A stretch of DNA of 64,000 bases from Halorussus halophilus (GTDB lineage: Archaea > Halobacteriota > Halobacteria > Halobacteriales > Haladaptataceae). Position 1 is the first letter of the stretch; each line of letters opens with the position of its first letter. The stretch covers positions 1,240,001 through 1,304,000 of the forward strand of contig NZ_CP044523.1 of NCBI RefSeq assembly GCF_008831545.1, written 5' to 3'. Below the pieces are notes generated by a model, which saw only the letters and a program-made list of their open reading frames with translations, was not told the DNA's origin and did not search any database. Both the position numbers and the translations under genes were made by a program. This document shows positions 25,751-36,236 of the stretch, piece after piece.

Positions 25751-27853
25751 ATGACCGACCCCACCGCGCGAAACCGTCTCGGAGAAGAGCAAAGCCCGTA
25801 TCTCCGTCAGCACGCCGACAACCCGGTCAACTGGCAACCGTGGGACGACGCCGCGCTCGACGCCGCCGCAGAGCGCGAGGTCCCCATCTTCCTCTCTATC
25901 GGCTACTCCGCCTGCCACTGGTGTCACGTGATGGAGGAAGAGAGCTTCGAGGACGAGGAAGTCGCGGAAGTCCTCAACGAGAACTTCGTCCCAATCAAGG
26001 TGGACCGCGAGGAGCGTCCCGACATCGACAGCATCTACCAGACCATCTGTCAGGCCGTCACCGGTGGCGGCGGATGGCCACTCTCGGTGTGGCTTACGCC
26101 CGACGGCAGGCCCTTCTACGTGGGTACGTACTTCCCCAAGCACGCCAAGCGCAACCAACCCGGCTTCCTCGACTTGCTCGACAACATCCGCAACTCGTGG
26201 AGCGACGAGGAGGGTCGCCGCGAGATGAAACGCCGGGCAGACCAGTGGACCGACGCCATCGAAGGCGAACTCGAATCGGTGCCAGAACCGGGCGAAGAAC
26301 CCGACGAAGACCTGCTCGAAACGGCTTCACGGGCCGCCAGTCGCTCGGCCGACGAGGAGCATGGCGGCTTCGGCACCGGTCAGAAGTTCCCCCAAGCGTC
26401 CCGCATCAATCTCCTCCTGCGCGCCTACCACCGCGTGGACGGCGAGAGCTACAAGCAAGTCGCCACTGACGCGCTCACCGCGATGGCGGAGGGCGGCCTC
26501 TTCGACCACGTCGGCGGCGGGTTCCACCGCTACACCGTGGACCGCGAGTGGGTCGTCCCGCACTTCGAGAAGATGCTGTACGACAACGCCGAAATCAGCA
26601 GGGCGATGCTCGCAGGCTATCAGGTCACGGGCGACGAGCGATACGAGACCGCAATCCGCCAGAGCTTCGAGTTCGTGGCGCGCGAGATGACTCACGAACG
26701 AGGAGGGTTCTTCAGCACGCTCGACGCCCAGAGCGACGGCGAAGAGGGCAAGTTCTACGTCTGGACGCCCGAGCAGATTCACGACGCTGTCGAGGACGAG
26801 ACGGCCGCGGACCTCTTCTGCGACCGCTTCGGCGTGACCGAGAAGGGTAACTTCGAGGGCAAGACGGTCCTCACGATTTCAGAGTCCGTCGAATCGCTCG
26901 CCGAGGACTACCAGATGGACGAAGCGGTTGTCGAGGACACACTCGAAGACGCCCGCCAGCAAGTCTTCGAAGCGAGAGCAGAACGAGTCCGCCCGCGGCG
27001 TGACGAGAAAGTTCTAGCAGGCTGGAACGGCCTGATGATTTCCGCACTCGCGGAGGGCGCGCTGGTACTTGACGGCGGCGAGCAGTACGCCGAGATGGCG
27101 ACCGACGCGCTCGAATTCGTGAAGGAGACGCTCTGGCGCGAAGACGAAGGGAAGCTGTTCCGTCGGTTCAAAGACGGAGACGTGGCAATCGAGGGCTACC
27201 TCGAAGACTACGCCTTCCTCGCTCGCGGCGCGCTGAACCTGTACGAGGCGACCGACCACGTCGAGCACCTCGCGTTCGCGCTGGACCTCGCGCGGGCCAT
27301 CGAAGCCCAGTTCTGGGACCCAGAAGCTGGAACCATCTACTTCACGCCCGAGCGCGGCGAGGAACTGGTCGCGCGACCGCAGGAACCGTACGACCAGTCC
27401 ACGCCGTCGAGTCTCGGCGTTGCGACGGAGACGCTCCTATCGCTCTCCCACTTTACCCCAGACGACGCCTTCCAAAACATCGCCGAGGCAGTCCTCTCCC
27501 GCCGGAGCCAACAGTGCGAGTCGAGTCCGTTGCAGTACACCTCCCTCGTGCTGGCGGCCGACCGCTACGCGAGTGGCTCGGTCGAACTGACCGTCGTCGC
27601 CGACGAACTCCCCGAGTCGTGGCGCGACCGACTCGCCGGGACGTACCTCCCGATGCGACTGCTGTCGCGGCGGCCATCAGATGACGACGAACTCGCGGAC
27701 TGGCTGGACAAACTCTGCCTCGAAGACGCGCCACCGATCTGGGCCGACCGCGAACAGACCGACGGCGTTCCGACGCTGTACGTCTGTCGGAACTTCACCT
27801 GCTCGCCGCCCGTGACCGACGTGGACGAAGGACTGGACTGGCTGGAGAACTGA
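25751..27853 (+). CDS. DUF255/SSP411-type thioredoxin-fold protein
   Basis: A 700-residue protein of the YyaL/SPATA20 family. The N-terminal thioredoxin-like domain opens with NRLGEEQSPYLRQHADNPVNW, read in two pieces, and carries YSACHWCHVM (C55, C58). It is followed by an (alpha/alpha)6-barrel typical of N-acyl-glucosamine epimerase/glycosidase folds: FDHVGGGFHRYTVD, PHFEKMLYDNA, GWNGLMISAL. The full family length is present. The reaction is not established; a redox or sugar-related role has been proposed for relatives. Confidence 0.88.
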   Translation: MTDPTARNRLGEEQSPYLRQHADNPVNWQPWDDAALDAAAEREVPIFLSIGYSACHWCHVMEEESFEDEEVAEVLNENFVPIKVDREERPDIDSIYQTICQAVTGGGGWPLSVWLTPDGRPFYVGTYFPKHAKRNQPGFLDLLDNIRNSWSDEEGRREMKRRADQWTDAIEGELESVPEPGEEPDEDLLETASRAASRSADEEHGGFGTGQKFPQASRINLLLRAYHRVDGESYKQVATDALTAMAEGGLFDHVGGGFHRYTVDREWVVPHFEKMLYDNAEISRAMLAGYQVTGDERYETAIRQSFEFVAREMTHERGGFFSTLDAQSDGEEGKFYVWTPEQIHDAVEDETAADLFCDRFGVTEKGNFEGKTVLTISESVESLAEDYQMDEAVVEDTLEDARQQVFEARAERVRPRRDEKVLAGWNGLMISALAEGALVLDGGEQYAEMATDALEFVKETLWREDEGKLFRRFKDGDVAIEGYLEDYAFLARGALNLYEATDHVEHLAFALDLARAIEAQFWDPEAGTIYFTPERGEELVARPQEPYDQSTPSSLGVATETLLSLSHFTPDDAFQNIAEAVLSRRSQQCESSPLQYTSLVLAADRYASGSVELTVVADELPESWRDRLAGTYLPMRLLSRRPSDDDELADWLDKLCLEDAPPIWADREQTDGVPTLYVCRNFTCSPPVTDVDEGLDWLEN

Positions 27854-27880
27854 GGAGTCGTCGCGTTTCGACGAGACTGC

Positions 27881-28462
27881 TTACTCGTCGCTCGTCTGGT
27901 CGGCGAACCCCGCCACTATCGAGCGCAGTCGGTCCACTGGAAGCCGAGTGAGGAAGTCCAAGACCGACTCGCTCCGCTCGAAGAGGCGACGCAGTTGGCG
28001 GACGCGCTGTAGGTCCCGCTGGTTTCGCTCGGTGTCCGGCGCGGCTTCGAGCAGTTCTTCGGCGTCGGTCAGTGCCCGACCCATGATGTCCGCCTCGCGA
28101 CGGACCTGCTGGCGGAGGAAGTCCTGGAGAATCCGCCAGAAGTCCCGCTCGGCCTCGAAGAACACGCGCTTTCCTTCGCCGGGTTTGCTCCGTCGGTGGA
28201 CCATGTGCATCCCTTCGAGCGTGCTCATGGCGTTGCTGACCGTCGATTTCGCGTAGCCGCTCTCTGCTACGAGGTCGTCTAACGACAGTGCTTCGTCGGC
28301 GAAGTAGAGGACTCCGTAGAGCCGTCCGTAACTCCTGTTGAGACCGTACACCTCCGCGCTCCGCTCCATCGCTTCCATGACCCGCTCGCGGGCGCGGTCG
28401 CCTGCGTCCGTGGTCTCGTCTGAGCCGTCGGCCTCTTCCTCGCTCACGCTCGTTCCCCCCAT
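27881..28462 (-). CDS. GbsR/MarR-family transcription regulator
   Basis: A 193-residue regulator. A winged-helix domain (about 35-100: GLNRSYGRLYGVLYFADEALSLDDL, read in pieces, then GYAKSTVSNAMSTLEG and MVHRRSKPGEGKRVFFEAERDFW) matches the GbsR group, and a helical C-terminal part (105-190) probably dimerises. The gene is divergent from the ABC transporter with 89 bp between starts, so it is the likely repressor of that operon. In other species GbsR relatives sense choline or membrane-active compounds. Confidence 0.82.
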   Translation of the reverse strand: MGGTSVSEEEADGSDETTDAGDRARERVMEAMERSAEVYGLNRSYGRLYGVLYFADEALSLDDLVAESGYAKSTVSNAMSTLEGMHMVHRRSKPGEGKRVFFEAERDFWRILQDFLRQQVRREADIMGRALTDAEELLEAAPDTERNQRDLQRVRQLRRLFERSESVLDFLTRLPVDRLRSIVAGFADQTSDE

Positions 28463-28551
28463 TCGCTCCGCTCAATATTGCGCCTCGCCATCTTCGTGCC
28501 AGACACTCGGCAGGGAAAGCATTAAATCGTTGTGTTCAGAATATTCGGTAA

Positions 28552-29268
28552 ATGCCGAATTTAGAAAATAGGCGGCAGTCGGCCGAGGAGTCCAGTCTCG
28601 TTCTGCGCGCTGAGGGCGTCGAGAAGACGTACGAATCGCGGCTTCCGTTCGGACGGTCCGTCGAAGTCCTGACGGACGCGAGCTTCACGCTGTCGAGCGG
28701 CGAAATCGTCGGCATCGTCGGCGAGAACGGGAGCGGGAAGTCCACGCTGATGAAGATTCTCGTCGGCGCGCTCGACGCGGACGCGGGCGGTGTGTCGCGG
28801 GAAGGCACAGTCGGCTGGTGCCCACAGGAACCACTGTTGTACGACCGGTTGACCGTCGAGGAGACGTTTCGACTGTTCGGGTCGGCGTACGGTCTCGCAG
28901 ACGAGGAAATCGAGTCGGCGCTCGACAGACTGGCCGACCGACTCGATTTCGAGCGATTCCGCGACTACCGCGTCGAGAATCTGAGCGGCGGCAACCGACA
29001 GAAGGTCAATCTGGCCGTCGCGCTCCTCTGCGACCCGGACGTGCTGTTCTTGGACGAACCGTACACCGGCTTCGACTGGGAGACGTACCTCGCGTTCTGG
29101 GACCTCACCGAAGAGTTAGTCGAGCGCGGCACCGGAATCTGCATCATCTCGCACCTCATCAACGAGCGCGAGCGATTCGACCGCATCTACGAGTTGCGGG
29201 AGGGCGAACTGGTCGAAACCGAACCACCTGAAGGAGGAGACACGGAGCACAACCATGGAAGCGCGTAG
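28552..29268 (+). CDS. ABC transporter ATP-binding protein
   Basis: A 238-residue ABC ATPase: Walker A GENGSGKST (57-65), a Q-loop in GWCPQEP, signature NLSGGNRQKVN and Walker B DVLFLDEP. It resembles the ATPases of ABC-2 type exporters. It overlaps the first permease gene by 14 bp. Substrate unknown, possibly a drug, lipid or peptide. Confidence 0.88.
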   Translation: MPNLENRRQSAEESSLVLRAEGVEKTYESRLPFGRSVEVLTDASFTLSSGEIVGIVGENGSGKSTLMKILVGALDADAGGVSREGTVGWCPQEPLLYDRLTVEETFRLFGSAYGLADEEIESALDRLADRLDFERFRDYRVENLSGGNRQKVNLAVALLCDPDVLFLDEPYTGFDWETYLAFWDLTEELVERGTGICIISHLINERERFDRIYELREGELVETEPPEGGDTEHNHGSA

Positions 29269-29983
29269 GCTCGCCACCGGCGTCAAAGCGGGCACCCTGT
29301 CGTTCTTCCGCGAACCGCTGACCGTGGCGTTGCTCGTCGTCCTCCCGCTAGTCGCTATCGAACTGTACGGTGCGGCGATGGCGTCGTTTCCCACGCTCCC
29401 GTTCATGGAAGCCCCACCCGAGACGGCCGGACGCATCAGCGGTGCGCTGTTCGCCACCGCGTTCCTCGCGGGCCTACTCGGCCTGTTTCAGGTAATCAGC
29501 GCCAGAGACGCGGACAATCGATTGGCGATTTGTGGCTTCCCGCGTGCGACGCTGCTGGTGAGTCGATTAGCGACTGTCTTAGTCGTCGCCACGGTGGTCG
29601 CCGCGCTCGCGACGCTCGCGCTGACCTACAGCGTGGACGTCGCCGAACCGTTCGTCGCGTTCGGCGTCTTGGCGGCCGCGGGCGTCGTCTACAGTTTGGT
29701 CGGAGTTCTCGTCGGGACGCTGGTTCCCAAGGAACTCGAAGGCTCGCTAGTGCTGGTGTTCCTCGCCGACATGGACGACTTCCTGTCGAGCGGACTGTTA
29801 GACGCCGACGTCCCGGTGGCGAAGTTCTTCCCGCTGTACCATCCACACCACGCGCTCCAGTCGGCGGTCCTGGACGGTTCCGTGTCCAGTGGACACGTCA
29901 GAGGTATCTTCGCGACTGTCGCCGTCCTGCTCGTCATCGCGCTTGGTGCGTATCTGTGGACGACGGGAGGAGTCGGCGAATGA
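29255..29983 (+). CDS. ABC-2 type permease, first subunit
   Basis: A 242-residue integral membrane protein with six predicted membrane segments (about 22-42, 62-84, 98-122, 130-155, 165-180, 215-238). Layout and context fit an ABC-2 exporter permease. It overlaps both the upstream ATPase and the downstream permease, so the three are translated as a unit. Confidence 0.75.
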   Translation: MEARRLATGVKAGTLSFFREPLTVALLVVLPLVAIELYGAAMASFPTLPFMEAPPETAGRISGALFATAFLAGLLGLFQVISARDADNRLAICGFPRATLLVSRLATVLVVATVVAALATLALTYSVDVAEPFVAFGVLAAAGVVYSLVGVLVGTLVPKELEGSLVLVFLADMDDFLSSGLLDADVPVAKFFPLYHPHHALQSAVLDGSVSSGHVRGIFATVAVLLVIALGAYLWTTGGVGE

Positions 29984-30759
29984 GTGGACGAACCGGCGGG
30001 CGGACGGACGGGCAAACGAGCGGGCGAGTGGGCGGCCGCGTGGGACTCGCCTTGCGGATGGGTATCCGCGAGTACGTTCGGACGCCGGTCCTGCTCGCAC
30101 TCTTGGTCGTCCTGCCCGTGTACTTCGTCGGCGTCGTCGGCTACGCGACGCCGAGCGCGACGATTCCGGTCGAAGTCGGCGGCGAATCGGTTCGAATCGC
30201 GATGAACGACCTGTACGCGACGCTCGCGGCACCACTAGCGGCCGCGCTCGTCGGCGGCATCGCGGGGCTGTTCGTCATGCGCTCGACGCGCGAGGCCGAC
30301 GCTCGACTCGTCCTCGCAGGCTACCGACCGACGGAGGTCGTGGGAGCCCGCATCGGACTTCTCGGCGTCGTCTGCGCCGTTCTTTCGGTGGTCGTCCTGA
30401 GCGTGCTGGCGGTCAGTTCCGTTCCGAATCACGTCGGCTGGTTCGCGGTCGCGACCGGACTCGCCGCGCTCACCTACGCACTCGTCGGTGCGCTCGTGGG
30501 CACCGTCCTCGGCCGCCTCGCTGGCGTCTACGCGATGCTATTCGGTCCGACGATAGACGTGTTCCTCTTCCAGAATCCGACGACGACCGACTCGGCGGCC
30601 GGAGCGACGTTCTTGCCGGGGCACTTTGCCACCATGGCTGCGATGGACGCCGCCCTCGGTTCGGGATTCGACGCGACGCCGCTCCTCTGGGGACTCGCGT
30701 ACCTCGCGGTCGTTGCGGTGGTAGCTGTCGGGGCGTTCTACCGAGCAATCGTCGAGTAA
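29980..30759 (+). CDS. ABC-2 type permease, second subunit
   Basis: A 259-residue membrane protein similar in layout to the previous gene, with a Gly/Arg-rich N-terminal arm (2-20) and about six membrane segments. The ATGA overlap at 29980-29983 fixes the start; a longer open frame from 29530 is a shadow within the first permease. Two different permeases imply a heterodimeric exporter. Confidence 0.75.
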   Translation: MSGRTGGRTDGQTSGRVGGRVGLALRMGIREYVRTPVLLALLVVLPVYFVGVVGYATPSATIPVEVGGESVRIAMNDLYATLAAPLAAALVGGIAGLFVMRSTREADARLVLAGYRPTEVVGARIGLLGVVCAVLSVVVLSVLAVSSVPNHVGWFAVATGLAALTYALVGALVGTVLGRLAGVYAMLFGPTIDVFLFQNPTTTDSAAGATFLPGHFATMAAMDAALGSGFDATPLLWGLAYLAVVAVVAVGAFYRAIVE

Positions 30760-30881
30760 CTCTGGCAGCCGTCGTCGATGTCCGGACGACTATCCTTGGC
30801 GTCCGGACGACTGTCGATACTGTCGCTCGAACGTTTTCGAACTGTCCAGGACTGCCACACCCCTTAACGGCCTGAAAAAAC

Positions 30882-30888
30882 TTTTATT
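30882..30888 (+). promoter_or_regulatory. TATA box of the CHAT-like gene
   Basis: TTTTATT after a run of A residues, about 53 nt before the ATG at 30938; predicted leader of about 27 nt. Confidence 0.5.
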
Positions 30889-30937
30889 GCGTCTTCCCGG
30901 GTGACGTACCCTAGAGAAAACGGGGCTCACGAACCAC

Positions 30938-33049
30938 ATGCAACCGCGATTCGACTCGCTGAATTCGGAACCGGGACTAGAGGTAGTAGACCCCATCGAG
31001 AACTCTCGGTTCGTCTTTCAGACCGACTGCCCCGTCTCGCCGACTGCCGCAGACACCGAGGAGTTTTACTTTCCTGTTTCGACGGCCTGCGAGGTAGTCG
31101 TCGAGGAGTTGTCGCTGCCTCGTATGGTCTGGTTCTCCGTCCGCGAGGCGACGGGTGACTACGTCGAAGAGGTGCAGTGGAACGACACACGAGAGCTAGA
31201 ACCCGGAGCGTATCTACTCGACTTCAGTTCGCGCATCAAACTGTACGTTCGTGCGGACTCAGCCCTGACTATCGACGCCGACCCCGATTCGGCTCGAATC
31301 GCGTTCGACGGTCCGACTCGCGTTCGAATCGGTGCCCGGTCGAACCACAGTTCGCCGGGAGCGACGGTCACCGTCCCCGACGACCCGACGGCACTCATGG
31401 ACGCCGTCTCGACGTTCGGGTCCGCTCTCAAGACCACCAGTTGCGAACGGTCGTGGCCCAGTCTCCGCGGCCATCCACCACAGGTCGAACGCGGCGACGA
31501 ACTGCAGATTCCAGACGAGTTGGAACCGCCGGACACCGGTGTGACGATTCACGTTCCTCCTGCGTACGAATCTATCTTTGCCGTCGCGCCACTCGCGTAC
31601 TACCTCGGTGCGACGGTCGTCCCCGGGGAATCGCCTCGGATAACGACCGACGATGGATTCGTCCATCGACTCGACAGCAAACGCGGCTTCGAGGACGAAG
31701 CGATTCGGACGCTGAAACAGACGTTCCTCCTCGACTGCGTCACTCGGACGGAAGGCTACTATCAGATGCGATTGAAGGCACGCAAAGCCCTCGAACCACG
31801 TCCCGAGGTGCCGCTCGACTTCGAGTCGCTGTACGAACTGTCGCTTGCCGAGCAGTTGCGGGAGTACCTCTCGGTGCCGTTCTCGGCGGTCGAATCGACA
31901 GTCCCGACGTGGAATCGCGTCGTCCACATGCGTCCCGACTTCGAGAGCGTCGAACTGCTCCCGTTCGTCGCTGACGACCTTTCGCTCGTCCGCGTCCACA
32001 CTTCCGAGGCGAACGCGCTCTCCCCCGAACGCGAACAGAAGCAGCAGGCACTCGAATCGTTCAAACGCAGTTCCGAGCGCCAGACTGGCGTTCCCGGTCC
32101 GAACGAGTACATGCCGCTTCCGACAGACGACGACGCTATCGAGCGGGCGTGGGTCGGCGAGGAGACGCCAGACCGAGGGGCGAAACTGCTTCCTGCAGCG
32201 TTTCGCCACGAACAGCCGCAGCCGAGGGACGGCACCATCGAGGTGACTATCGTCTGTAACGACGAGGAGATGAACGAGGAGTTTGACGCCGTGTCTGCGG
32301 TCTACGGCTCACGCAAACACGTTCGGTTCGACGTAGAGTCACGATTCGGCGTCTCGACTGACGAAGTTCGCTCACTGCTCGCTGAGGACACCGACCTCTT
32401 TCACTTCATCGGCCACATCGACGGTCGTGGATTAGAGTGTCCCGATGGCGTCCTCGACGCCGAGACGGTATCTGAGACCGGGGCGACGACAGTGCTGCTG
32501 AACGCGTGTCGGTCTCACGACCAAGGCGTCGCACTCGTCGAAGCGGGTGCCAAGGCAGCCATCGTGAGCCTGAGCGACGTCGAGAACGAGGCTGCGGTCG
32601 AAGTCGGCGAAACGTTCGCTCGGTTGCTCGACTACGGATTCACAGTCGGCGGTGCGCTCGAAGTCGCGCGCGAGTACACCACAGTCGGTCGGCAGTACGT
32701 GGTCCTCGGGGACCCGAATACGGCGGCCACGGAACCCGAAGGCGGCGGTCCCTTCATCTCTGACTTAGAAGAAAACGCGCCGTGGCCACCCTCACGCGAC
32801 GACGAGATAGACGTGCGGTCGAGCGTGTACTGCTCCCAATCGTTCGTCATGGGGTCGGTGGGTAAGACACCACTCGAACCGACCGAGACCCCTACGTACT
32901 ACCTCGTTCCCGGTCACGTTGGTACCTTCACTTGGTCAGTTCGACAACTCGAACGAATCTACGAGGGGAACGAAATGCTGTACGCTATCGACGGTGAATT
33001 ACGCTGGAGCGAAGGCTGGCCCTTCGGCGAGGCGGAACAACGGCAGTGA
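30938..33049 (+). CDS. Large CHAT/caspase-like domain protein
   Basis: A 703-residue soluble protein. Its C-terminal third matches the CHAT (caspase HetF-associated) fold: DLFHFIGHIDGRG with the catalytic-type His (H493), TTVLLNACRSHDQG with the Cys (C524), then a GAKAAIVSL strand, a small helix with FARLLDYGFTVGGALEVAR and a GDPN close. The first 480 residues form two or more beta-rich and mixed domains with no family I recognise. It is inferred to be a cysteine peptidase, perhaps used in stress or defence-linked cell death. It stands alone with its own promoter. Confidence 0.7.
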   Translation: MQPRFDSLNSEPGLEVVDPIENSRFVFQTDCPVSPTAADTEEFYFPVSTACEVVVEELSLPRMVWFSVREATGDYVEEVQWNDTRELEPGAYLLDFSSRIKLYVRADSALTIDADPDSARIAFDGPTRVRIGARSNHSSPGATVTVPDDPTALMDAVSTFGSALKTTSCERSWPSLRGHPPQVERGDELQIPDELEPPDTGVTIHVPPAYESIFAVAPLAYYLGATVVPGESPRITTDDGFVHRLDSKRGFEDEAIRTLKQTFLLDCVTRTEGYYQMRLKARKALEPRPEVPLDFESLYELSLAEQLREYLSVPFSAVESTVPTWNRVVHMRPDFESVELLPFVADDLSLVRVHTSEANALSPEREQKQQALESFKRSSERQTGVPGPNEYMPLPTDDDAIERAWVGEETPDRGAKLLPAAFRHEQPQPRDGTIEVTIVCNDEEMNEEFDAVSAVYGSRKHVRFDVESRFGVSTDEVRSLLAEDTDLFHFIGHIDGRGLECPDGVLDAETVSETGATTVLLNACRSHDQGVALVEAGAKAAIVSLSDVENEAAVEVGETFARLLDYGFTVGGALEVAREYTTVGRQYVVLGDPNTAATEPEGGGPFISDLEENAPWPPSRDDEIDVRSSVYCSQSFVMGSVGKTPLEPTETPTYYLVPGHVGTFTWSVRQLERIYEGNEMLYAIDGELRWSEGWPFGEAEQRQ

Positions 33050-33092
33050 CGATAGTTATAGGTGGTCAGTCAGACTCGAAGGAGTTCCCGTC

Positions 33093-33464
33093 TCACACCA
33101 GCACGTCGGCGTCTAGCAGTCGGTCGGCGACGTACGTCGCCACCGGAACGTCTTCGCTCTCTTCGAAGCGGAACAGTTCCTCGTCGTCTTGTTCGAGGAC
33201 GATGGTCGGGATGAGCGTCACGTCGTACTCGTCGGTCAGTTCGCCGTCCTTGTTCTGGTCTACTTCGTACGTCTCGATTTCTTCGTCCGGAACGCCCGCC
33301 GCGTCGAGTGCGGCGAAGAAGTCCGGCATCACGGTCCGGCAGTCGCCACACCAGTCTGCACCCCAGATTTTGTAGGTGACTTCGCCCACGGCGGATTCGA
33401 GGGCACTCACGACTTCGCTGTGTGCGTCGGCGTCCCACGTCGGGTTCGGTTCGGTCGTCTCCAT
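33093..33464 (-). CDS. Thioredoxin family protein
   Basis: A 123-residue thioredoxin-fold protein with the redox motif WCGDC (C39, C42) and the cis-proline loop VTLIPTIVL. The second motif position is Asp rather than Pro, which typically alters redox potential. It is presumably a cytoplasmic disulphide reductase. The ATG at 33464 gives a normal thioredoxin length; the upstream in-frame start at 33539 adds an unconserved 25 residues. Confidence 0.85.
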   Translation of the reverse strand: METTEPNPTWDADAHSEVVSALESAVGEVTYKIWGADWCGDCRTVMPDFFAALDAAGVPDEEIETYEVDQNKDGELTDEYDVTLIPTIVLEQDDEELFRFEESEDVPVATYVADRLLDADVLV

Positions 33465-33562
33465 GCGCGAATATTGTCGTTCGGGGGCTTTAACCCCTAG
33501 GCTGCGGCGAAACTCCCGGTAGTCAGTCGGAGTCGGCACTACCTGCCGCCGCCCACCATGCG

Positions 33563-33568
33563 TTTATA
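33563..33568 (+). promoter_or_regulatory. TATA box of the cysteine synthase gene
   Basis: TTTATA, centred about 26 nt before the ATG at 33592. The spacing favours leaderless start at 33592 over the ATG at 33583. Confidence 0.6.
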
Positions 33569-33591
33569 CGTGCACTTCGTAGATGGGAACA

Positions 33592-34565
<974 letters not shown>

Positions 34566-34569
<4 letters not shown>

Positions 34570-35420
34570 GCGGTTCCGAGGAACTCCCGAACGACCGAAT
34601 TGAATCTTTCTGATTTCTCCCGCGGTGGCCAGTGTCCACAATCTCGAAGCACCTCCACGCTCGCGCTCGGTGCGAGCGTCCCCGCTCGAACTGCCCACCC
34701 GACGGGCACCAGCGCGTCGTCCTCGCCGTGAACCAGCAACGTCGGCACCGATAGCTCTGGGAGTCGCCTGCGATAGTTCGTCTTCAGGCCCGAGAACCCG
34801 ACTTCGTTGCGCTGGAAGCGTTGCCACGCCTCGCCCGCGTTCGGTCGCTGAAGTTCGGCGAACACGTCGTCCACGAGTTCGTCGGTGAGGTTGCCCGCCC
34901 CGACGACGCCTGTGAGGACGAGTCTCGCCAATTCTCGACTCGACCCCATCACGTCCCAGATTCCTCCCGTAAGCCACGGAGTTCGGACGAATAGCGCGCC
35001 GAGGAGACTGCCGAGCGAACCGCCCGGTATCCTCTCGCCCAAGCCGTAGCTATCGACCAGCGCCAGTTTCTCGACGCGGTCGGGGTGGTTGAGCGCGAAT
35101 CCCAACGCTGCACCGCCGCCCATCGAGATGCCGACGAGGCTAACCGATTCGAGGTCGAGCGAGTCGAGAAAGCGTCGGACGACATCGCCGTAGTACGGGA
35201 TAGAAACCGCGCCGTCCGGCGGGTCGCTCTCTCCGTACCCCGGCCAGTCGAGCGCGTAGACGGTTCAGTTCTCGGCGAGCGTGGGAATGGTCTCTTTCCA
35301 CGAGAGTGTCGCGCTGTCGAGGCCGCCACCGTGGAGCAGAACGACCGGTGGCCCCGACCCTTCGACGACGTAGTTCACGCGCAGGCCGCTCAGATTGACG
35401 GTGCGGTTTCGTTCGGGCAT
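34566..35420 (-). pseudogene. Alpha/beta hydrolase interrupted by one in-frame TGA
   Basis: Read from the ATG at 35420 in one frame, the gene encodes MPERNRTVNL, the oxyanion motif LLHGGGLDS and ETIPTLAEN, then a TGA at codon 52 (35267-35265), then TVYALDWPGYGESD, the nucleophile elbow GISMGGG, the Asp in LLVHGEDD and the His in RDCGHW. All 284 positions before and after are typical of an intact hydrolase. A C-to-T change of CGA (Arg) would give this stop. Recognition as a pseudogene is direct from the sequence; the alternative is a sequencing error. Initiation at the internal ATG 35123 would lose the first beta strands. Confidence 0.85.
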
Positions 35421-35784
35421 GGAGTTCTCTTCGTCGCCCACTCACCAGAAAGTACTTGACGTTTCTCGATTCGTCGTAGCCAGTGTGATAGTCTGGCAAA
35501 CTGCGAAGCGATGGAAGTACAAGGGCCGAACCTGCGAAATCCAGCAATCGAGCGTCGGCGACGCGTCCCAACTCCGCGGTCTCGTGGAGGTCGAAACGGG
35601 CATCGAGGAGTGTCAACTGGACGCCTCACCGATTGCTGACCTCCAGCGCAAGCGGTGGCCAATGCGCCACGAGCGAGGCGAGTTCCGGACGTGGCTCTAC
35701 TTCGGTTCGTCCGAGAGCGAGAAATCTGCGCTCCGCGAGGAGGTCAACGAACTCGCGGAGTTCGTCGGGGAGCGAGAACTCTAA
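35419..35784 (+). CDS. Small hypothetical protein
   Basis: A 121-residue open frame with haloarchaeal codon use in its second half (VEVETGIEECQLDASP, WLYFGSSESEKSALREEV, a helical end). No family recognised. The first 20 residues are poor; a GTG at 35485 may be the true start, giving about 99 residues. It converges on the DUF5804-like gene with a 4-bp stop overlap. Existence is likely, start uncertain. Confidence 0.5.
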   Translation: MEFSSSPTHQKVLDVSRFVVASVIVWQTAKRWKYKGRTCEIQQSSVGDASQLRGLVEVETGIEECQLDASPIADLQRKRWPMRHERGEFRTWLYFGSSESEKSALREEVNELAEFVGEREL

Positions 35785-36236
35785 CCGCTGAACTCCGATT
35801 CGGTCACGCGCACGACGAGCGTGTCGGCTACCTCTCGCAGGTCGTACTCCGGAATCTCGCCGTCGCGACGGCTCAGATACATCGGCTCGACGAGTTCGTC
35901 CTCGTCGGTGACGCCGTACACCTTCAGGTACTCGTCGGTCTCGTCGGCCGAAATCTCACCGTCTCGTATCTTCGTTGCGATGTCGCGGGAGAGCCACTCC
36001 GTCTCGCTGACGCTCGGTTCCAACACGAGTTCGTCTTGGGAGAAGCGGACCAAATACCAGTTCAGGTCGTTCAACAGCGCGATGGCCGACCCGAGGCTGA
36101 TGGTCTCGACTTCGAGCGAGTTGACGAACGGCTCTTGGGGGCTGTAGGTCGCCAACGCCTCGCGGGAGGTCTCCCGCGAACCCAACTCCAAGCGCAGGTC
36201 GATTCCGTCCGCCCCGACGAGACAGACCCGAGTCAC
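35781..36236 (-). CDS. DUF5804 family haloarchaeal protein
   Basis: A 151-residue protein beginning V-TRVCLVGADGIDLRLELGSRET (read in pieces), then EVETISLGSAIALLNDLNWYLVRF and WLSRDIATKIRDGEI. This series is characteristic of the haloarchaeal DUF5804 family. Function unknown; predicted soluble. The GTG at 36236 is preferred because the only upstream ATG (36290) would overlap the CHRD gene and add unconserved residues. Confidence 0.7.
   Translation of the reverse strand: MTRVCLVGADGIDLRLELGSRETSREALATYSPQEPFVNSLEVETISLGSAIALLNDLNWYLVRFSQDELVLEPSVSETEWLSRDIATKIRDGEISADETDEYLKVYGVTDEDELVEPMYLSRRDGEIPEYDLREVADTLVVRVTESEFSG

Follow-up and report, generated by a model that had tools for sequence, protein, structure and literature searches.

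An intact open reading frame on the forward strand occupies positions 30938–33049 of the window (the whole stretch of 64,000 nucleotides that was analysed); it starts with ATG at 30938, its stop codon ends at 33049, and it encodes a protein of 703 residues. The Pfam CHAT model (PF12770) matches residues 446–578 with E 6.1e-7 and 29.6 bits against a gathering score of 24. The His-Cys dyad, predicted to be catalytic, is represented by H493 in the motif FHFIGH (codon 32414–32416) and C524 in the motif LLNAC (codon 32507–32509). The NCBIfam search with the window protein gave no match, and the PDB sequence searches gave no convincing match either with the single sequence (only E 0.35) or with a profile (only E 0.52). 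In the AlphaFold2 model of the whole protein (mean pLDDT 81.8, pTM 0.81), H493 follows one strand and C524 another. The best structural match of the catalytic part, approximately residues 428–601, is the type III CRISPR-associated SAVED-CHAT protease (PDB 8tl0; Z 18.2, rmsd 2.3, 170 residues); gingipain RgpB (Z 17.3), separase (Z 17.0), legumain (Z 12.9) and caspase-7 (Z 12.5) were also matched. The model supports the assignment of the gene to CHAT peptidases with the caspase/separase fold, and proteolytic activity is predicted. An earlier note, made from the sequence alone, had described a large CHAT/caspase-like protein with this dyad; this was confirmed, and the structure prediction that it proposed as a check yielded a caspase-type fold.

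The protein, all parts of which are encoded on the forward strand, begins with an N-terminal beta domain (residues 1–146, 30938–31375; pLDDT approximately 86–97), followed by a conserved alpha/beta middle domain (residues 147–355, 31376–32002), the invariant alignment columns of which include the motifs K...ER...RGHPP. A low-confidence linker of variable length (residues 356–430, 32003–32227; pLDDT below 50 over residues 356–412) separates the N-terminal part from the caspase-like catalytic domain (residues 431–601, 32228–32740), after which comes a beta-rich C-terminal domain (residues 602–703, 32741–33046). The last is the putative recognition domain and is hypervariable in relatives paired with the gene DUF7503, described below. 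Residues 1–358, modelled alone, reached a mean pLDDT of 92.9, and the structure search with them returned nothing above Z 7.7, a value also lying below a clear match for the beta domain; the matches, mostly beta sandwiches of sugar enzymes and YidC, were not above background, and a known sensor fold was rejected for the N-terminal part. The absence of a recognised family from this region, as stated in the earlier note, holds at the Pfam level, while its suggestion that the N-terminal part is the sensor received no direct support; the sensor-like, specificity-determining element would be the C-terminal domain.

Upstream of the CHAT gene are located a gene for an HTH regulator (27881–28462, reverse strand) and three ABC transporter genes (28552–30759, forward strand). 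Downstream, a 43-bp gap (33050–33092) precedes a convergent gene for a thioredoxin-like protein.

Distribution of the family and its neighbour genes

Relatives of the window protein were found in 272 of 292 haloarchaeal genomes with completeness of at least 90%, representing 68 of 76 genera, and in all 28 genomes of the window's own family; at most three candidates were scored per genome, so these figures do not give copy numbers. Among named genomes, the closest relatives are from Halorussus, and loci of the window's genus share their sequences with named Halorussus loci, which places the window by inference in this genus. In the window genome, 18 match rows correspond to 13 dispersed CHAT genes. 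Two CHAT genes of this genome form a direct tandem (G000:C1:896849-901080), and neither is accompanied by DUF7503 or DUF7504. A profile of the family matched 57 of 295 genomes of the wider phylum, namely, 53 haloarchaeal genomes and four genomes of one other family (G320, G329, G338 and G346). At E 1 or better, only nine of 20 relatives were recognised by the Pfam CHAT model.

Both the histidine and the cysteine are retained in 174 of 186 aligned family rows, so the dyad is not a chance occurrence, and the conservation in homologues for which the earlier note had asked was found. The remaining 12 rows comprise four cut at locus ends and eight of a pseudoprotease. The latter belong to a second CHAT paralogue (L197–L204), present in all eight genomes of the genus set g8, which has lost both catalytic residues and represents a conserved pseudoprotease lineage; the universal dyad seen in a smaller set (56 of 56) was overturned by this paralogue.

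In a Pfam search of 20 members, neither a SAVED domain (E up to 1) nor a TPR domain was detected. PADLOC defence models gave no match to the window protein and one unconvincing match (E 0.059) among the 20 members, and no relatives were found in phage records or in viral contigs. Several of the CHAT loci examined are located beside housekeeping genes. The near-universal distribution, together with the PADLOC, phage and viral-contig results, ruled out a standalone defence gene as the leading interpretation, and the proposed role as an immune or cell-death effector gained no direct support.

Clustering of the genes adjacent to CHAT revealed two recurrent families, DUF7504 (PF24336), often located directly upstream, and DUF7503 (PF24335), a predicted membrane micropeptide of about 44 residues, the gene of which is convergent with the 3' end of the CHAT gene. 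Both are Pfam families of unknown function, and neither was found by name in the open-access literature. A Pfam search for DUF7503 in 39 haloarchaeal genomes with completeness of at least 95%, not conditioned on the presence of CHAT, detected 45 genes in 31 genomes; all 45 point at a CHAT 3' end and lie 5–160 bp beyond it. The convergent layout was confirmed from the locus DNA in 35 of 35 loci tested. DUF7503 was absent from the 11 genomes tested among the 20 CHAT-negative ones, and from the four non-haloarchaeal genomes with a CHAT relative. As judged from gene content and position, an obligate pairing of DUF7503 with CHAT was shown.

In the window genome, seven of the 13 CHAT genes are accompanied by DUF7503 and six by DUF7504 directly upstream. 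Both families are also present in Haloferax volcanii, and a complete arrangement is found in NZ_CP100455.1, with NKI68_RS20535 (DUF7504), RS20540 (CHAT) and RS20545 (DUF7503). DUF7504 was rejected as an obligate operon partner: it is located upstream in 11 of 13 loci of g23 and 7 of 7 loci of g44, and was not found upstream in g8, g11, g6, g7 and g13, while g34 contains a divergent DUF7504-like gene. At one locus, L145 (G039), two tandem DUF7503 genes encoding an identical peptide are located beside a single CHAT gene. In NZ_CP007057.1, a DUF7503 gene convergent with CHAT (L195:5363-5536) is missing from the listed features; micropeptides of this type are easily missed in annotation. Directly upstream of the same CHAT gene, DUF7504 forms part of a protein whose annotation includes a HalOD1 output domain (L195:1552-2937), which hints at signal transduction.

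Among the 13 orthologues of the window gene from the same genus, all contain DUF7504 directly upstream and one contains DUF7503 downstream. Neither gene was found within 27000–36000 of the window, where the HTH regulator and ABC transporter genes hold the usual place of DUF7504. The window copy apparently lost, or never had, both usual neighbours; its dyad, C-terminal domain and reading frame are intact, which makes it an orphan and not a pseudogene. The statement of the earlier note that no obvious partner lies nearby is correct for this copy and incorrect for the family, the partner of which, the micropeptide, was invisible from a locus without DUF7503. A reading as a rare, standalone gene for defence does not agree with the family's wide distribution and partner gene.

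The micropeptide and the variable stretch across both gene ends

DUF7503 proteins are 42–50 residues long and contain a conserved single hydrophobic helix, a small-residue AxA-like end and a short variable tail ending in Gly-Pro. The core of 94 distinct sequences is described by [YFW]-L-x-x-[NH]-P-[RK]-M-x-G-[VA]-L-F-T, after which come a hydrophobic run and QAG-x-[AV]-A; the motif [NH]P[KR] is strongly conserved just before the helix. The tail comprises 8–11 residues, the last two places being occupied by G in 86 and by P in 83 of the 94 sequences; in a separate set, the GP ending was found in 63 of 74. The 94 sequences, one of which is cut before the tail, contain 90 distinct tails. In five species of g8, the peptides are the same up to the tail, where the next four residues are IAKT, QAAV, MAAT, AAVV or AAVG, followed by NPGP.

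The tails are mostly free of lysine and arginine (80 of 94), and positive residues are located before the helix; this distribution of charges suggests a topology with the tail outside. The n-region also carries acidic residues, which is unusual for a signal peptide. Since the CHAT protein has no obvious export signal, direct contact between the tail and CHAT would require either re-import of the peptide or the opposite topology.

In several genus sets, paired CHAT proteins are far more variable in the C-terminal domain than elsewhere. The eight species of g8 share 90% identity in the catalytic domain and 44% in the C-terminal domain; C-terminal identity is 47% in g11 (15 species), 61% in g23 (13 species) and 42% in g34 (5 species), against 82–91% for the catalytic domain across these four sets. 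In the DNA of g8, identity is about 0.9 as far as a point 270 bp ahead of the CHAT stop codon; from there it falls to about 0.5, a level held across the stop codon, the intergenic gap and the tail of DUF7503, before rising again to 0.84–0.94 in the DUF7503 core. The hypervariable stretch of approximately 300 bp accordingly covers the C-terminal end of CHAT and the DUF7503 tail before the terminal Gly-Pro.

Synonymous sites are affected as well: pS in the C-terminal domain is 0.78 in g8, 0.76 in g11, 0.66 in g23 and 0.83 in g34, versus 0.30–0.46 elsewhere in the same genes, and exceeds that of every other region in 27 of 28, 104 of 105, 73 of 78 and 10 of 10 pairs, respectively. The same pattern of C-terminal divergence was found in the single pairs g13a and g13b. 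In paired loci of g7 (4 species), there is little excess of C-terminal protein divergence, and in those of g6 (3 species) there is none. In g8, g11 and g34, C-terminal identity is nearly uncoupled from identity over the remainder of the protein (rho −0.07 to 0.40, versus 0.60–0.90 between other regions), but in g23 it does follow it. The locus L150 was excluded from the comparisons by genus, as it looked like another orthologue. The divergence of the hypervariable stretches has been independent of that in other parts of the two genes, as would be expected if recombination exchanges them; owing to the raised pS and the weak dependence of C-terminal identity on the rest of the protein, the pattern fits allele exchange better than relaxed constraint.

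CHAT paralogues lacking DUF7503 served for comparison. In the second CHAT without DUF7503, C-terminal identity is 94% in g11 (3 pairs) and 81% in g7 (10 pairs); in the paired CHAT proteins of the same three g11 genomes (L179, L182 and L183), it is 41–48%, with catalytic domains 96–99% identical. In g44, where six of seven loci lack DUF7503 and one contains it, C-terminal identity is 80% (21 pairs), and there is no excess of pS. No C-terminal figure is given for the second CHAT of g8, of which too little was aligned. Among the orthologues of the window gene (12 of 13 lacking DUF7503), the C-terminal domain is also the most divergent region (0.36 versus 0.53, 0.66 and 0.78), with a smaller C-terminal drop in close pairs.

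Six g11 pairs that share an identical tail show C-terminal identities of 0.70–0.93, while the mean for the 99 g11 pairs with different tails is 0.45. After regression on the other regions, similarity of the tail correlates with that of the C-terminal domain (0.54, permutation p 0.0002). The corresponding values were not significant in g8 (p 0.25), g23 (p 0.08) and g34 (p 0.84). As the tail and the C-terminal domain are physically linked, the covariation in g11 could result from linkage alone, by hitch-hiking in one recombination tract.

Possible functions of the CHAT–DUF7503 pair

The chances appear about even that the C-terminal domain recognises the cognate DUF7503 tail and thereby controls the CHAT protease, both the recognition and the activity being inferred. 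The family would then be a haloarchaeal multigene family of cytosolic CHAT cysteine peptidases, in which the C-terminal domain binds its cognate tail, presented either by a released signal peptide or by a membrane-tethered regulator, and binding switches the His-Cys peptidase. Each CHAT paralogue would form a separate recognition channel, the window copy being the orphan of one channel. A broader and more tentative proposal, which we consider possible without favouring it, is peptide recognition across the class Halobacteria with a caspase-like protease as the receptor: the tail-to-tail specificity ends, placed in one stretch of about 300 bp, would be swapped as a unit by recombination, and novel pherotypes or kin types would arise in this way; each cell would operate several orthogonal channels, and orphan proteases, such as that of the window, would have lost their own peptide.

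The obligate pairing could also mean that CHAT is the processing protease of DUF7503, cutting it near the membrane and using the hypervariable C-terminal domain as an exosite for the variable tail. The dyad, invariant outside one pseudoprotease lineage, agrees with such a role, as do the conserved [NH]P[KR] motif before the helix and the conserved Gly-Pro end of the peptide; however, many CHAT copies lacking DUF7503, including six of 13 in the window genome, keep the dyad, and the helix separates the conserved motif from the variable tail; this reading is unlikely. Quite unlikely, too, is a role as immune or cell-death effector, as put forward in the earlier note; the active protease would then kill or arrest cells that are infected or non-self, and DUF7503 would be the antitoxin or self-marker. 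The nearest solved structures do include the SAVED-CHAT and Craspase CHAT proteases, and systems of conflict or of self/non-self distinction are typically hypervariable (compare the VARTIG module of Thermococcales, PMC8416519), but the near-universal distribution of the family, the housekeeping neighbours of several loci and the defence, phage and viral searches described above speak against it.

A housekeeping caspase-like peptidase, responsible for the strong caspase-like activity of haloarchaeal extracts and merely tethered to the membrane by DUF7503, appears improbable. High caspase-like activity of unidentified source is reported for H. volcanii in PMC3615174, this species carries both DUF families, and the CHAT family is near-universal; but a tether needs no hypervariable tail, and the Pfam CHAT model has no match in H. 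volcanii, though at E 1 or better this model also fails to detect 11 of 20 known members. Relaxed constraint on the C-terminal domain and the tail, with no specific recognition, would account for the low identity and raised pN of this domain and for the little excess in g7 and g6. It would not, however, raise pS about two-fold in a single segment (0.76–0.83 versus approximately 0.3–0.45 in g8, g11 and g34), and it leaves unexplained the conserved paralogues without DUF7503 in the same genera, as well as the conservation that DUF7503 shows in its core and Gly-Pro end; we regard it as very improbable. The preferred reading is that of a C-terminal domain recognising its cognate tail.

Relation to known systems

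CHAT peptidases, peptide–receptor pairs and hypervariable archaeal modules are known kinds of systems. SAVED-CHAT, which shares the catalytic CHAT domain with the family, responds to cyclic oligonucleotides; it differs in the presence of the SAVED domain, absent here at the Pfam level, where the neighbour is a micropeptide. Separase and Craspase (TPR-CHAT, Csx29) share the protease fold (Z 17.0 and approximately 12–14), but the present family has no TPR at the Pfam level and possesses an N-terminal beta domain of 146 residues and a hypervariable C-terminal extension.

The RRNPP pairs of Firmicutes resemble the CHAT–DUF7503 pair in the adjacent small peptide with variable last residues; according to PMC10075063, the mature peptides are usually the last 4–10 residues, and the pairs are defined by an adjacent propeptide of 10–100 aa, Sec-dependent export and a receptor of 250–500 aa with TPRs. 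An adjacent small peptide is present in DUF7503-paired members and absent from the window copy. With regard to export, the hydrophobic helix of DUF7503 and its AxA-like end are accompanied by an n-region with acidic residues. The receptor-like protein differs from that description, since CHAT here is a caspase-fold peptidase of about 700 aa with no TPR match, and the genes are convergent. The VARTIG module is likewise archaeal, and its hypervariable C-terminal domain is attributed to recombination, but it consists of secreted Ig-domain proteins in variable islands, with no CHAT protease or micropeptide described in the available part of PMC8416519.

In the open-access literature, to which the search was directed, no archaeal peptide-signalling system of the CHAT–micropeptide type was found, nor a protease of the caspase fold that has a recombining specificity stretch in common with a convergent micropeptide. 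The linkage of two hypervariable partners suggests that archaea have a recognition system based on peptides. For the caspase-like activity of haloarchaea, PMC3615174 notes that homologous genes are lacking and raises the question of which proteins are responsible; the near-universal CHAT family, its dyad intact, is a direct candidate. The family is large in haloarchaea and almost unstudied; its plasmid copies, found in 25 records, are annotated mostly as 'hypothetical protein', with one 'CHAT domain' and one 'caspase family' protein.
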